Below are positions 1 to 64,000 of a stretch of DNA of 64,000 nt, one piece after another; the stretch's first letter is position 1; each line of letters starts with the position of its first letter. A model generated the notes under the pieces. It was not told the DNA's origin. It ran no database searches and saw only the letters and a program-made list of their open reading frames with translations. The DNA comes from Chryseobacterium gleum (lineage in GTDB: Bacteria; Bacteroidota; Bacteroidia; Flavobacteriales; BACL11): contig CAMBDW010000005.1 in assembly GCA_945865535.1 (NCBI GenBank), positions 1 to 64,000 on the forward strand, written 5' to 3'. Position numbers and translations under genes: made by a program.

Positions 1-36
1 GGATGGCAGAAGTATGAAACAAGAAGCCAAAATTAT

Positions 37-1296
37 TCATGTAGTTCCTCGCCCAAGAAATTTTCCTAAATAAATACTCAGAGGAATATTAATGGTCATA
101 GAAATTAGTGATGTAATCAATTGTAACTTTATTTTACCAACCCCATTAATAAAATTCACATAAATCATATTAAAGGTCACTAAAAGTACAAAAAGTGCCA
201 TTGCCATAGATAATTGCAATGGCACCAATACTTTATCACCAACCCAAAACTGATAAAACCAGTCTGCTAAAAAGACCATCCCAATAAGACAAACAGGAAT
301 AAGCATCCATAATTTTTGAATATTGGACACGGATTTTTTAATCCATTCAAAATCTTTTTTGGCATACGCCTCAGTAAATGAAGACCAGTAAGGGGTAATT
401 ATTATTGAATAAGCCATGGTAACAATAGAAAAATACTTGAATGCAATATTGTATGGTACTACCTCTTCGGGTCCAAAAAGTTTACTTATAATAAAGTTAT
501 CAGTTGAAAATAGCACCATTGCCGCAATTTGTACTACAAAAAACTTAAACCCTAAGCCAGTAATTTCCTTTAAATATTCTTTTTCCCAAAGAGAGAATTT
601 GGGTTTAAATTCCTTAAAAGTTGTATTAAATGCAAAAATATTCATCCCAATTAAAATTAAAACCGGCAAGGCCGAGAAAATACTTCCAAAAATGAGTAAA
701 GAACTATGATCTGTTTTTGTCAATCCCCAAATAGCCAATAAAGATAACGCCTGCCCAAAAAATTGGATTTTCCCTTCTATAGAATGATTTTGGTCTGCCT
801 GGTATATGCTTGTAATTAATTTAACCACCAATTGAAGTCCAAAAAAGGCAAAAATAATAGGCAATAATAGTGATAGTTCTGCTTGTAAACTTGCATTGGC
901 ATTGAACAATTGTGCCCAATCTATAAATTGGTTTAGCCCAAAAAATACAATAACTAATAATACACTAATACTGCCAATGGTATAGTATGCAGTACTAACA
1001 AATGCCTGAGCATCTTTATAATTTCCAAGTGATTTTGCTTCAGCAAATTTGTTTCTAAGTCCATTGCCCAAACCAATATCAAAAAATGAAAACCAGTATA
1101 TAAATGATGTTAAGACTAGCCATATGCCATAGTTTTCATTATCCAAGTAATTTATAGTAAGTGGCACTAACATAAAATTAGCTATTACACTGCCAATTTT
1201 ATAAAAAGAAGTCCAACCAATATGATTGACAATATTTTTGGTTCGATCACTTTTAATTCCTACTCTATTGTAAATTTTTTGAATTGTCTGCTTCAA
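37..1296 (-). CDS. Wzx-like polysaccharide flippase, probably truncated by an in-frame TGA
   Basis: This is a multi-pass inner-membrane protein of the MATE/MVF-type polysaccharide export superfamily, expected to flip lipid-linked repeat units across the membrane. The N-terminal part (residues about 24-75, with the motif FDIGLGNGLRN) is typical of Bacteroidota Wzx-like proteins, and many hydrophobic helices follow. At 419 residues it is shorter than the roughly 450-500 usual for the family. The start is TTG at 1296; no ATG lies between the gpsA stop and the first helix, and the frame upstream is closed by a TAA at the position of the gpsA stop. It ends LGRGTT-TGA, yet the same frame continues after the stop to the window edge as IILASCFILLPS, a good helix continuation. 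A Gly codon GGA changed to TGA would explain this. It is the most distal visible gene of the operon, 21 bases after gpsA. Confidence 0.8.
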   Translation of the reverse strand: MKQTIQKIYNRVGIKSDRTKNIVNHIGWTSFYKIGSVIANFMLVPLTINYLDNENYGIWLVLTSFIYWFSFFDIGLGNGLRNKFAEAKSLGNYKDAQAFVSTAYYTIGSISVLLVIVFFGLNQFIDWAQLFNANASLQAELSLLLPIIFAFFGLQLVVKLITSIYQADQNHSIEGKIQFFGQALSLLAIWGLTKTDHSSLLIFGSIFSALPVLILIGMNIFAFNTTFKEFKPKFSLWEKEYLKEITGLGFKFFVVQIAAMVLFSTDNFIISKLFGPEEVVPYNIAFKYFSIVTMAYSIIITPYWSSFTEAYAKKDFEWIKKSVSNIQKLWMLIPVCLIGMVFLADWFYQFWVGDKVLVPLQLSMAMALFVLLVTFNMIYVNFINGVGKIKLQLITSLISMTINIPLSIYLGKFLGRGTT

Positions 1297-5886: not shown

Positions 5887-6635
5887 AATATTCTTTTCTT
5901 AATTGCATTAAAAGTATAATTTAAAAAACACCAAGTACTATAGAAAAAAGACAGCTTTTCAATTTCTCTATATACTTTCCAAACATCCTTTGCTGCACGC
6001 AATTTACTAGAAGTATTAGAATTTGAAACAACTCTATATTGAGCTAGATTCTCATCTATTCCATATCCATGAAATCCTCTTTTCATAATTAAGAGCCAAA
6101 GCGCCATATCATGTGAAGATCGAATATTCGGCATTTCAAAATTTCCTGTTTTCTCTCTATCTATTACAACCGTTAAACAACCAATTATTGTATTTTTCAA
6201 ATAGGAAGAGTAAGTCATAATACTAGGTGCTTTTACAACTGAAAATAACTTATTCCCATCTTCTGAAATGGGCTGATAATTGGTAAAAGAAAAGGCAATA
6301 TCCTTTTCTTGCATAAAGTAAATTTGAGCTTCTAATTTTGTAGGCATCCATAAATCATCTGAATCTAAAAAGGCTATATATTTTCCTTTAGCTTTTGAAA
6401 TTGCAATATTCCTAGCTTTCGCAGCGCCAATGTTTTTATCTAAAAAAATTGTTTTAATTCTTGTGTCATTTTCAGATAAGACAGTTATTTTCTCTTTGGA
6501 ATTATCAGTAGAAAAATCATCTACAATAATCATCTCCCAATTAGTATAGGTTTGAGCAAGTACTGAGTTTATACAGTCCTCAATAAATTTTGAAGCATTA
6601 TAAGCAGGAGTTATTATGGATACAAGACTATTCAC
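5883..6635 (-). CDS. GT2-family glycosyltransferase
   Basis: Inverting GT-A-fold glycosyltransferase, probably adding one sugar of the repeat unit on the cytoplasmic face. The N-terminal segment VSIITPAYNASKFIEDCINS is the classic GT2 opening. The nucleotide-binding aspartates are IIVDD (36-40), and the metal-binding motif is FLDSDDLW (89-96, Asp-x-Asp form). GAAKARNIAI (70-79) lies between them as expected. At 250 residues it is a compact enzyme with no obvious transmembrane segment. The start is GTG at 6635, inside the last codons of the preceding gene (8-base overlap). The sugar donor and acceptor cannot be read from the sequence. Confidence 0.9.
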   Translation of the reverse strand: MNSLVSIITPAYNASKFIEDCINSVLAQTYTNWEMIIVDDFSTDNSKEKITVLSENDTRIKTIFLDKNIGAAKARNIAISKAKGKYIAFLDSDDLWMPTKLEAQIYFMQEKDIAFSFTNYQPISEDGNKLFSVVKAPSIMTYSSYLKNTIIGCLTVVIDREKTGNFEMPNIRSSHDMALWLLIMKRGFHGYGIDENLAQYRVVSNSNTSSKLRAAKDVWKVYREIEKLSFFYSTWCFLNYTFNAIKKRIL

Positions 6636-7455
6636 ACTTATTTAATCTGTGATATTGTTCCTGCTTTAAAACGACGCCTATCTTATGTAATAATTTATTA
6701 CTACTTCTAATAATTAGAAAACGAAATGGGTATAACATAAAAACAATAACCCTAATCATGGGGTGATATTGAATATGCAATTTACAATACGCCTTTCTAA
6801 ATTTAAATTTCTCAATCAAAAATGTTTGCGTATTAGTTGCATGTAAAATACTTCTAGTCCCTTCATTAACATATAATAATTTTCTTTCTTTTAAATAATA
6901 ACAATTCATAGTGTAGTAAAGAACATAACTGGAATATTTTTTTAAATAATCAACATGGAACTTTATTGTAGAATAATAACATTGATTAGCTATTATTTTA
7001 TTTTGACTATAAGCTATTAGTAAATTATCTTCCTTATTAAACACACCCCAAAATTCCCACAACTCATCTAACTTCTCAATATCATCTAAAAATTCATTAC
7101 AAGTCATAGGCTTATTTATTGTATAATACCTTTTAAAAGCAGATGAATATACAGAGTAGCCACTTTCTAACATTTCTTTTTTGCTAATTTTTCTTACTTC
7201 TAATTCTTTAAATCCTCTCCTTATCTTACTTCTTGTGTTAACGCTATATTCTTCTAACTCTAAATTCTTATCATTTATCAAATACCAAAAGCTTGACTTT
7301 TTGCTTCTATCAAATTCTGTTATCCATCTAGCAAAAAAAGCGCGTTCTTGTTTTATTTTTTGTTTTATTAAAATTGAATCTATTGCAATCTCAATATGCG
7401 GTGGGTGGTCTGGAATCAAAGCTCCATTATATTTTTTCCAATTCTGCAATTTCAA
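6628..7455 (-). CDS. FemAB/GNAT-like acyltransferase candidate in polysaccharide operon
   Basis: I do not recognise a named family with certainty. The segment RSKIRRGFKELEVRKI (75-90) resembles the basic helix and turn of FemAB/GNAT-fold acyl- or aminoacyl-transferases. Other fold-like features are the aromatic-rich SFWYLI (55-60), a YSQNKIIANQCYYSTIKFH strand pair, and a C-terminal basic tail. These support an N-acyltransferase fold acting on a lipid-linked or amino sugar, which is inference. The start is TTG at 7455, overlapping the TGA of the upstream gene (TTGA); no internal ATG precedes residue 95, so TTG is the only reasonable start. The protein is 275 residues with no signal peptide and one weakly hydrophobic stretch near residues 230-250. 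Acylation of a 4-amino sugar made by the PglE-like enzyme is one possible role. Confidence 0.5.
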   Translation of the reverse strand: MKLQNWKKYNGALIPDHPPHIEIAIDSILIKQKIKQERAFFARWITEFDRSKKSSFWYLINDKNLELEEYSVNTRSKIRRGFKELEVRKISKKEMLESGYSVYSSAFKRYYTINKPMTCNEFLDDIEKLDELWEFWGVFNKEDNLLIAYSQNKIIANQCYYSTIKFHVDYLKKYSSYVLYYTMNCYYLKERKLLYVNEGTRSILHATNTQTFLIEKFKFRKAYCKLHIQYHPMIRVIVFMLYPFRFLIIRSSNKLLHKIGVVLKQEQYHRLNKCE

Positions 7456-8186
7456 TATATCTTATGAATAATGTATGTTAAAAAATCAAACTGTAAGTCA
7501 CGCACCTTATATATTAAGGTGTCTAGTGGTTTAAGTGAATCTCTATTATCAGAAATTGAAAAACCCAGTCGCTTTAATTTATTTTTAGCTAATGGATTCC
7601 ACATTCCTTTAACAATACCATTAACAAAAGGTATCACATTACTTCTTGTTGAATAAAAATCATTGTACTTATACGATCTGACATTGCCATTTCTTTCAAA
7701 TTCCCAAGCATCCTCTTCCTTTTCCAATAATTCAAGTAAAATATTCTTATTCCAAAACGACCATATAGCAGAGTTCTTATATTTTGTATGATTTGATTTT
7801 TTAAAAATTAAGTTATCAACTCTCTTGCCTATTGAAATAGAACGATAAAACTGTAAATAGTTAAATTTACTTTCGATAGAACGTTTCATTAATTGTTTAA
7901 TAAGTTGATTATCTACCTTAGCTGTTAGAAACAAATCATCAAAAGTTAATAGTACATACTGCTGATTAATTTTTTTTAAACTTTTAATTAAATTATCTGA
8001 CCAAGATAGTTCATCTCCAATAACTAATGAAATAAATATTTGACTATCGATTTTTTTATGATGGGTACTTAAATAAATTGGAAAATCAATATCATTCCAA
8101 TACTTAAGATAGGTGTGCTCTAAAGGTCTCCATAAATCCTCTGAATTATCATAAGTTGATATCAATAGCGCAATACTACTACTCAT
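7452..8186 (-). CDS. Glycosyltransferase-like protein of capsule loci, family uncertain
   Basis: A 244-residue soluble protein that opens with a GT-A-like strand (IALLISTYDNSEDLW), followed by WSDNL (62-66) and LLTFDDLFL (79-87), whose Asp pair could hold the metal and nucleotide. A later WEFE (161-164) is also typical of the uncharacterised glycosyltransferase-like proteins often annotated hypothetical in capsule and O-antigen clusters. A role in adding a sugar to the repeat unit is inferred from these features and the operon. ATG at 8186 overlaps the end of the polymerase gene by 8 bases, and its TGA overlaps the TTG of the next gene. No membrane segment or signal peptide is visible. Confidence 0.55.
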   Translation of the reverse strand: MSSSIALLISTYDNSEDLWRPLEHTYLKYWNDIDFPIYLSTHHKKIDSQIFISLVIGDELSWSDNLIKSLKKINQQYVLLTFDDLFLTAKVDNQLIKQLMKRSIESKFNYLQFYRSISIGKRVDNLIFKKSNHTKYKNSAIWSFWNKNILLELLEKEEDAWEFERNGNVRSYKYNDFYSTRSNVIPFVNGIVKGMWNPLAKNKLKRLGFSISDNRDSLKPLDTLIYKVRDLQFDFLTYIIHKIY

Positions 8187-9405
8187 CTCTAATTATTATT
8201 AAAGGGTTATGTATAAGAATAAACGAAATAATAATAAAAAGTAATCTAGAGTCATTTAACATACCGCTTACTAAGGAATTTAAAAAGAAGAATAGAAATA
8301 AGTAAAATAAAAGTGGATAAAATGAAGTTTTATCGTTTTTATACTCAATCATTTTATGATAACTCAAGTGAAATACATACAGAAATAACAATAATAATAC
8401 TAATACCGTTGGGATTCCATACTCGCAAGCTACTTCTAAGACTAAATTATGAGGATATTCTAATGGCATTAAATGAGTGGGGCTTAATTTATTTGTAATC
8501 ACTTGCCAATTACCAGCTCCAACACCTAGAGGATAGTTCTGCAAGAGAAGAAATGATCCAATTGCTAAGTTGGTACGAGTACTTGTTGATTGTTTGCTTC
8601 CTCCCTTTTTTGAAATATTCATAAATACTCTTTTCGAATTCCCAAGTTTAGCGATTTGTTTCTCTACTCCAGAAAAGACAAGAACTGATATCAATAAAAA
8701 TACTCCTAAACTTATTCTTACAATTACTCTATTAAAGTTCAAAAATACATACACAAAAGCAGTTAAAAAAAGTCCTAATATGGGGCCTCTACTACCAGTT
8801 GCTAATGCCAAAATGAAAAAGATTAATATGAGTGAGTATTTATATATATATTTAATTTTTACAGGAAGAAATAAGAGCGTGATTATTCCAAAACCCATCC
8901 ATCTTGCAAAAACTATAGGGCCGCCTCCTAAGACAGTCATTCTACCATCAGCTCTTTCAGTAATGGATGGACCAAAAAAAGAGAGTAATGCCAACAAACA
9001 TGTAACTGCTAGCAGGATATAGAAAGTATTTAACACATCTTTTCTTTCATATTTTTCAGCAATAACTACTGAAATAGGAATTACTATTAGCCAGAAGTTT
9101 ATAGCTTTCTCAAATCCATAATCCGTAACATCAAAAACAAGCCATAAAATAGGAGTCATTAAAAGTGCCAATAAATAAAACGAATAAAATAATACTTTTG
9201 ATTTGGAAAGAATAGTTTTCTTAATTGAAAACAACATAAAAATAACTGACACCAAATAAATAACACTAAGAAAAATTCCTAGATTTATATCAGCAATTTC
9301 TAGTCTTTCATCATAAACTCTTCCAATGGCTAATAATGCACATGAAAAAAACAAAAAAATCCATGAATTAATTGTTTTATCTGACATATCTATAGTATTT
9401 AACAT
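8179..9405 (-). CDS. Wzy/WaaL-type O-antigen polymerase or ligase
   Basis: Polytopic inner-membrane protein with roughly ten hydrophobic helices. TGSRGP (203-208) followed by a large periplasmic loop is the O-antigen ligase/polymerase signature. The loop ends in YPLGVGAGNW (291-300) and EYPHNLVLEVACEYG (316-330), the conserved His-Asn of that domain. In this operon, polymerisation of flipped repeat units (Wzy) is more likely than ligation because a Wzz-like gene and flippases are co-transcribed; the sequence alone does not separate the two. The first ATG (9405) overlaps the flippase gene by 29 bases. A second in-frame ATG at 9387 (MSDKTINSW) would shorten the overlap to 11 and is an equally plausible start. 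Confidence 0.82.
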   Translation of the reverse strand: MLNTIDMSDKTINSWIFLFFSCALLAIGRVYDERLEIADINLGIFLSVIYLVSVIFMLFSIKKTILSKSKVLFYSFYLLALLMTPILWLVFDVTDYGFEKAINFWLIVIPISVVIAEKYERKDVLNTFYILLAVTCLLALLSFFGPSITERADGRMTVLGGGPIVFARWMGFGIITLLFLPVKIKYIYKYSLILIFFILALATGSRGPILGLFLTAFVYVFLNFNRVIVRISLGVFLLISVLVFSGVEKQIAKLGNSKRVFMNISKKGGSKQSTSTRTNLAIGSFLLLQNYPLGVGAGNWQVITNKLSPTHLMPLEYPHNLVLEVACEYGIPTVLVLLLLFLYVFHLSYHKMIEYKNDKTSFYPLLFYLFLFFFLNSLVSGMLNDSRLLFIIISFILIHNPLIIIRDE

Positions 9406-10648
9406 ACGAAAACAATGAAAGAATAAAATAGAGCGCTGATAAACTATACATCATAATTAATGATTGACTTTTAGCACTGCTTGGGGAAAACTGAAAATAT
9501 GCAATAATCAATCCAATACTAATCAAAAAAAGAAGTGCTATATTTTTACTTGATAAATTAAGATATTCTTGAGGAAGCGAAAAAAAGGGTTGAAATAAAG
9601 CAGATGCCAAAAAAATCAACACAAAACTAAAACTTAAGTCTTTGGCGTAAGCCAAAGTCGCCAGTGTATCCTCTAAAGTAAAAGCACCTCTTTGAAAAAT
9701 AAATTGAATAATCTCAAAGCCAAACGTATTAATTACAAATACTAAGCCCAATCCTAAGATCAATGCAGTAAAACCTGAAAATAAAACTAAACGTATATCT
9801 TTTTTGATTGATAGTCTTCTTAATACAATAGTATTTAAATTCAGTACAACTGCTGTAAGTAATACATTTAATAAAACAACTGAATAATTAAAAAACGTAA
9901 TATTATTCCCATCATCAAGCCCTGCAACAAACCTAGATAGAAGCATAATAATATTTGCAAAATTGCCTAAGAGCAATAATGAAATATTGAAATCTTTAAT
10001 TCCAAATTCAACATCTTTACCTTTCTGCTCTCTAAACATTGGAAACAAATAGATATAAAATAAGCTCAACAAGCCTAATAATCGACTAATAGCAATTCCT
10101 ATCACCCCAAATAATAAAGATAATGGATACAATATAAGTGTAGATATAAACATATCCATTGTAGTAGCAATAGAATGCTTTTTAAATTGCCCTTTCCCTT
10201 GCATAATTACAAGAAAAATTGCGTTATAGAAGTTTATAGATAAAATTATCCCCAATAATAAAGACAAGAAAATAAAGGTCCAAAAATATTCTGGATTTAT
10301 ATAAAGTATAATGGGTATTTGGATCAATTGACTCAAAATAAATAATCCTAACATAATCTTTTGAGAAAACTTGAATATATTAACTAAAGAAATATCATCA
10401 TTTGAAGAATATAATTTTGAAAATTTAGACAATAAACTTGCCTGCATTGCATTTCCTTGAGTTAAGTCTGAAAATAACTCTGATACCGTTTTTAGTAATA
10501 AGAAATTAGCATATAAAACAGAAGATCCAAAAATGGATGCTAAAATAATTTCTCGTACAAATCCAAATCCTTTCTTTATAATATTTGCACAAAACATATA
10601 CCAAAAATCAAATGAAGATTTTGATAGAAGAATACTTTTAATAGACAT
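9377..10648 (-). CDS. MurJ/MviN-like flippase in polysaccharide operon
   Basis: Multi-pass inner-membrane protein of the MVF superfamily. The N-terminal segment GFGFVREIILASIFGSS is the MurJ-type first helix and loop, and a later IFQRGAFT segment (about residues 310-320) matches the FxRGxF element conserved in MurJ homologues. The 423-residue length is shorter than housekeeping MurJ (about 500 or more) and hydrophobic helices run nearly throughout. Its place between ugd and the polymerase suggests export of a lipid-linked polysaccharide unit rather than lipid II. It is the second flippase-like gene of the operon besides the Wzx-like gene at the window edge. The ATG at 10648 lies 6 bases after the ugd stop. 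Confidence 0.75.
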   Translation of the reverse strand: MSIKSILLSKSSFDFWYMFCANIIKKGFGFVREIILASIFGSSVLYANFLLLKTVSELFSDLTQGNAMQASLLSKFSKLYSSNDDISLVNIFKFSQKIMLGLFILSQLIQIPIILYINPEYFWTFIFLSLLLGIILSINFYNAIFLVIMQGKGQFKKHSIATTMDMFISTLILYPLSLLFGVIGIAISRLLGLLSLFYIYLFPMFREQKGKDVEFGIKDFNISLLLLGNFANIIMLLSRFVAGLDDGNNITFFNYSVVLLNVLLTAVVLNLNTIVLRRLSIKKDIRLVLFSGFTALILGLGLVFVINTFGFEIIQFIFQRGAFTLEDTLATLAYAKDLSFSFVLIFLASALFQPFFSLPQEYLNLSSKNIALLFLISIGLIIAYFQFSPSSAKSQSLIMMYSLSALYFILSLFSYVKYYRYVR

Positions 10649-63082: not shown

Positions 63083-63090
63083 TAAATTTG
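63083..63090 (+). promoter_or_regulatory. -7 promoter element of the metalloprotease gene
   Basis: TAAATTTG followed by C matches TAnnTTTG fully, 21 bases before the ATG. No -33 partner is evident. Confidence 0.5.
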
Positions 63091-63111
63091 CCTTTGAAAA
63101 CTAATTTTGTT

Positions 63112-64000
63112 ATGATAAAAAAAATAGCTACTTTAATACTAATAGCTTCCACTTCTATTAATGCTCAAGAAAGATGCGGAACTGAAGCAATTACCAAGCG
63201 TAGGATGGAAATTTATCCTGAGTACCGAATTGCAAGAGAAAAAGTAAATGTTCAAACTGAACAAAGGATTGGAAATCACCCTAATTATAGTGAAAAAACA
63301 ATTATCACTATTCCAGTTGTAGTACATGTGGTTTGGAATACAAGTGCTCAAAACATCTCTGATGCCCAAATACAATCCCAAATAGATGTACTAAATAAAG
63401 ATTATAGAAGAACAAATATTGATGTAATAAACACCCCTAGTGTTTGGCAAGCCATAGCTGCAGATTGTGAAATTGAATTTTGTCTTGCTACAACTGATCC
63501 AAACGGACAGCCAACAACAGGAATTACCCGAACCCAAACTACTCATGGCCCTTTTGGAATGGAAAGCGATATACATACTTCTTCTTTGGGTGGTAAAGAT
63601 GACTGGCCAAATGATGATTATTTAAATATTTGGGTGTGTAATATTAGTAGCGGGCTTTTAGGTTATGCAACTCCACCGAGCAATTGGATTGGAGATGGTG
63701 ATGGGCTTGTAATTGGATACAAATATTTTGGAACAACTGGGACGCTTTCACCTCCATTTAATAAAGGAAGAACTGCCACGCATGAATTAGGCCACTGGCT
63801 CAATTTAGATCATCTTTGGGGAGCTTGGGGGAGTTGTGGTAACGATCAAGTTAGTGATACTCCTAAACAAGAAACAGAAAATTATTCATGTCCTGGATTT
63901 CCTTTAAATATAAATGCTTGCAGCACAACAAATGCGAATGGCGATATGTTTATGAATTACATGGATTACACCAATGATGCTTGTATGAATCTATTCACTG
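63112..64000 (+). CDS. Secreted M43 (pappalysin-like) metalloprotease, 3' end beyond the window
   Basis: Open frame from ATG 63112 to the window end (296 codons seen, no stop). A signal peptide (residues 1-18, cleavage near INA-QE) is followed by a propeptide-like part. VVVHVVWN (70-76) and ISDAQIQSQIDVLNKDYRR (82-100) are the family opening, and the zinc motif is HELGHWLNLDH (224-234, HExxHxxxxxH). The Met-turn follows in MFMNYMDY (279-286). Cysteines C243, C260 and C270 suggest disulfides. The family is peptidase M43 and extracellular. In Bacteroidota such proteases often carry a C-terminal type IX sorting domain, which would lie beyond the window. The gene faces the divergent rplU promoter. 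Confidence 0.93.
   Translation, partial: MIKKIATLILIASTSINAQERCGTEAITKRRMEIYPEYRIAREKVNVQTEQRIGNHPNYSEKTIITIPVVVHVVWNTSAQNISDAQIQSQIDVLNKDYRRTNIDVINTPSVWQAIAADCEIEFCLATTDPNGQPTTGITRTQTTHGPFGMESDIHTSSLGGKDDWPNDDYLNIWVCNISSGLLGYATPPSNWIGDGDGLVIGYKYFGTTGTLSPPFNKGRTATHELGHWLNLDHLWGAWGSCGNDQVSDTPKQETENYSCPGFPLNINACSTTNANGDMFMNYMDYTNDACMNLFT

Follow-up and report, generated by a model that had tools for sequence, protein, structure and literature searches.

The gene for a Wzx-like flippase at the very start of contig C5 is interrupted by an in-frame TGA at 37..39 on the minus strand, and sequence comparison confirms that this codon falls within what reads as the homologous C-terminal tail of the protein. 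The window, i.e. the whole 64,000-nucleotide stretch of DNA that was analysed, shares its base 1 with base 1 of C5, so the end of the contig cuts the flippase gene as well. It is established that the tail is homologous, that the stop lies in a glycine column, that the contig ends here and that the flippase body is intact. As to the origin of the stop, we slightly prefer an edge artefact, namely an error, or a base from a minority strain, among the final 39 bases of the contig, and give this reading an even chance; a real and recent nonsense mutation, leaving the flippase without its last transmembrane helix, comes somewhat short of even. The earlier note had left the choice between a nonsense mutation and a sequencing error, and we retain both.

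The interrupted frame and its homologues

The flippase body occupies 40..1296 on the minus strand (419 codons, with a TTG start proposed at 1296). Its frame closes with ...LGRGTT-TGA at 37-39 and then reads IILASCFILLPS to base 1, and by homology fit the 12 codons at 1..36 (minus strand) are assigned to the rest of the C-terminal helix, which the contig end truncates. The earlier note had described a frame cut by TGA with a natural continuation, and the sequence is exactly so. The 12-residue fit, which was scored against nine homologues only, reached 21.1 over the homologous columns of these relatives, and none of the 60,994 stop-free 12-codon stretches on both window strands, 11,184 hydrophobic ones included, fitted as well. 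When the last 72 residues of a homologue were compared with the whole genome, the sole match was C5:10-150 on the minus strand (E 6e-16), with '1 TGA' inside it. The codon-usage score of the tail is poor (-0.38 vs 0.22 for the flippase body, and -0.52 and -0.11 when the same bases are read in the other two frames); this atypical usage counts against the observation, but 12 codons are too few to weigh much.

The comparison set consists of 19 distinct homologues with 32-72% identity to the flippase, made up of hits with an E value of 1e-60 or lower from a search of 395 genomes in the order, eight genome-collection loci and L003. L116 is the window itself and L120 duplicates L003, so neither was counted, and eight weaker matches (E 1e-5 to 1e-3) were left out of the alignment; the same-genus genome G001 gave no match to the flippase. 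In good agreement with the earlier expectation of a glycine at the stop, the stop column holds Gly in 18 of the 19 homologues and Ser in the remaining one (L124). Relatives ending naturally at the same place, which the earlier note had named as a refutation, did not appear: each of the 19 extends 30-34 residues past this column, and no internal stop was found in any homologue retrieved. The open frame of the window gene stops about 35 residues early.

The body itself scores over the Pfam cut-offs for both MatE (41.7 bits, cut-off 24.9; 1.2e-10) and Polysacc_synt (38.6 bits, cut-off 28.2; 1.1e-9), as a polysaccharide flippase of the MOP superfamily does, and is 72% identical to L114 and 66% identical to L013. 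The gene product is Wzx-like and is predicted to flip undecaprenyl-linked sugar units. It keeps 19 of the 19 columns that are invariant across all 19 homologues and 49 of the 50 that are invariant in a closer set (n = 13), and the 419-residue body therefore carries no older decay. Since the body is intact at its invariant columns, the stop would be either very young or not there.

The gene forms the end of a surface-polysaccharide cluster, where its neighbours include an epimerase/dehydratase, an aminotransferase, a sugar transferase, a GT2 glycosyltransferase, a Wzy-like protein and a UDP-sugar dehydrogenase. A second multi-helix protein of the cluster (9377-10648, minus strand), which by eye we take to be MurJ/Wzx-like, has no match in Pfam, NCBIfam or the PDB sequences, and two adjacent ORFs of 275 and 244 aa (6628-8186, minus strand) have no Pfam match.

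Decoding of TGA and phase variation

A rival reading is that TGA is read through, whether because the codon is reassigned across the genome, because a suppressor tRNA decodes it or because selenocysteine is inserted. The glycine in the stop column speaks for this, as does the stop usage of the window: among 53 ORFs (the 55 listed minus the antisense 8570-9022 and the open-ended 63088-63999) TAA is used 37 times, TAG 10 times and TGA, the rarest, six times, the flippase included. Against it, five other ORFs end in TGA, each of which by its coordinates overlaps an adjacent ORF by 4 bases, and their continuations all reach a further stop within 30 codons. Furthermore, release factor 2 (prfB) is present over cut-off, and none of the 30 tRNA loci called by ARAGORN has a UCA anticodon, while the anticodon loop of one more locus, the 31st, which was read by Rfam only, shows none either (32 tRNA matches in all, two of them uncalled by ARAGORN and one of these two read by Rfam). 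No selB scores over cut-off in the genome, which holds weaker elongation-factor-like matches only, and the other homologues found have no internal stop. With TGA ending five other ORFs, with prfB in the genome and with no tRNA found to carry a UCA anticodon, both recoding and selenocysteine are unlikely, in line with the earlier view of TGA as a normal stop here; we reject these mechanisms together with a suppressor tRNA on the TGA-ended ORFs, prfB, the anticodons and selB, and regard readthrough as a whole as very improbable.

Two side observations concern tRNA genes. A tRNA-like element at C13:41189-41262 of this genome, G000 (L139:190-263), has a low score of 30.2 bits, just over the cut-off of 29, and no ARAGORN call. 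Separately, several contig ends of G000 lie in or near tRNA genes.

The part of the earlier note that did not hold up is phase-variation-like loss of function. Surface-polysaccharide loci of Bacteroidota are often phase variable, and this favours switching of the flippase. However, searches around the stop found no slippage-prone tract, no usable inverted repeat and no tandem repeat, the one tandem repeat detected being a weak 22-base one at 949-970. Inverted repeats of 14-37 nt did turn up, but their arms are imperfect (70-93% complementary), they resemble what chance would produce in AT-rich DNA, and in no case does the stop lie at an arm. The difference, moreover, amounts to one codon, and we know of no switching device that acts through an isolated substitution. 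Phase variation by repeats or inversion is accordingly rejected for want of a signature in these searches, and we give switching hardly any weight. The earlier interpretation thus stands in part: the continuation, the glycine, the normal use of TGA and the choice between mutation and error are supported, and phase variation is not.

The contig edge and the last helix

In the preferred reading, an edge artefact, the flippase gene continues beyond the end of C5, and one lone TGA codon lies 36 bases inside the edge. The codon would most likely stem from a read error that escaped correction, or from a base contributed by a minority strain, close to a contig end at which coverage may have run out or at which the assembly graph, in a surface-polysaccharide locus that varies between strains, may have branched. 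In the cell the gene would in that case encode an ordinary flippase with all 12 helices, and we infer that the TGA base is not the true base of the population.

Several properties of the assembly (a 1.51 Mb draft in 30 contigs, estimated to be 94% complete) bear on this reading. Exactly 149 bases are common to two contig ends in six pairs (genome G000, ends L054-L113), which we read as the mark left by a graph assembler at branch points. None of the other 59 contig ends overlaps the C5 start head to tail by as much as 16 bases, and the start is therefore a dead end or its neighbour is absent from the bin. The distance from the stop to the edge of C5, 39 bases at most, is shorter than the 149-base overlap, and support is often weakest in the last bases of a contig. 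Artefact is further favoured by the intact flippase body and by a search of the whole genome assembly, other contigs included, in which the rest of the C-terminal tail was not found.

Against an artefact stand the other contig ends. A survey of all 60 ends, based on a coding score and admitting frames of 100 codons or more, shows long coding-like frames in the edge region at 14 ends, 10 open to the edge and four stopping within 150 bases. Because the C5 start alone among those four has a stop-free continuation after the stop, the assembly gives no visible sign that edge errors are common. Graph assemblers, in addition, normally trim short erroneous tips.

What a real nonsense mutation would remove can be read from a model of the homologue L013 (pLDDT 84.7), which stands in for the window protein. 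It has the MOP fold and matches MATE, WzxE and MurJ structures, with a TM of 0.77 by target to WzxE 9g9p_A. The glycine of the stop column is residue 416 of 450 in L013 and the last helix of the model spans 413-440, and a protein ending there would therefore lack the last helix and the tail, nearly all of the helix being lost. For P. aeruginosa Wzx, 12 transmembrane segments have been mapped (PMC3412221); in the window protein the open frame ends where the last helix begins, and the contig end cuts the gene anyway. Loss of this helix would be expected to inactivate the flippase. With a truncated and probably inactive protein, the polysaccharide would stay unexported or another flippase would take over, and such a loss can be favoured, e.g. 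by phages that use the polysaccharide.

A recent nonsense mutation is consistent with the otherwise clean frame around the stop. The same genome encodes four other Polysacc_synt proteins, all without internal stops, so the loss could be tolerated. On the other side, a single codon is its only support, there is no second lesion in the body, and the position within 39 bases of a contig end would be a coincidence. A further variant, in which the TGA is real and fixed, the body stays under selection and an 11-helix protein or low-level readthrough is functional and tunes polysaccharide export, strikes us as far-fetched.

Relation to known flippases and pseudogenes

Both leading readings are ordinary, and a literature search found no paper on this flippase gene. 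Reads are needed before an apparent pseudogene at a contig edge is counted as a gene loss. A real stop would leave the strain minus one of at least five Polysacc_synt-type proteins (the window flippase included), an ordinary event in surface-polysaccharide loci. The case differs from nonsense pseudogenes of such loci in that its stop sits at a contig edge and is known only from the assembly, and resembles them in that a single in-frame stop interrupts a flippase gene that is intact elsewhere.

Compared with the Wzx and WzxE flippases of the MOP superfamily, which act on O-units and lipid III, the window gene is unlike in its shortened open frame, in a family profile that has no match among solved-structure sequences at E 0.1, and in a score of 29 of 300 bits for NCBIfam WZX_like, far under cut-off. 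It is like them in its joint Polysacc_synt and MatE matches, in the structures that the model of its homologue resembles, WzxE 9g9p_A among them, and in its place among surface-polysaccharide genes.
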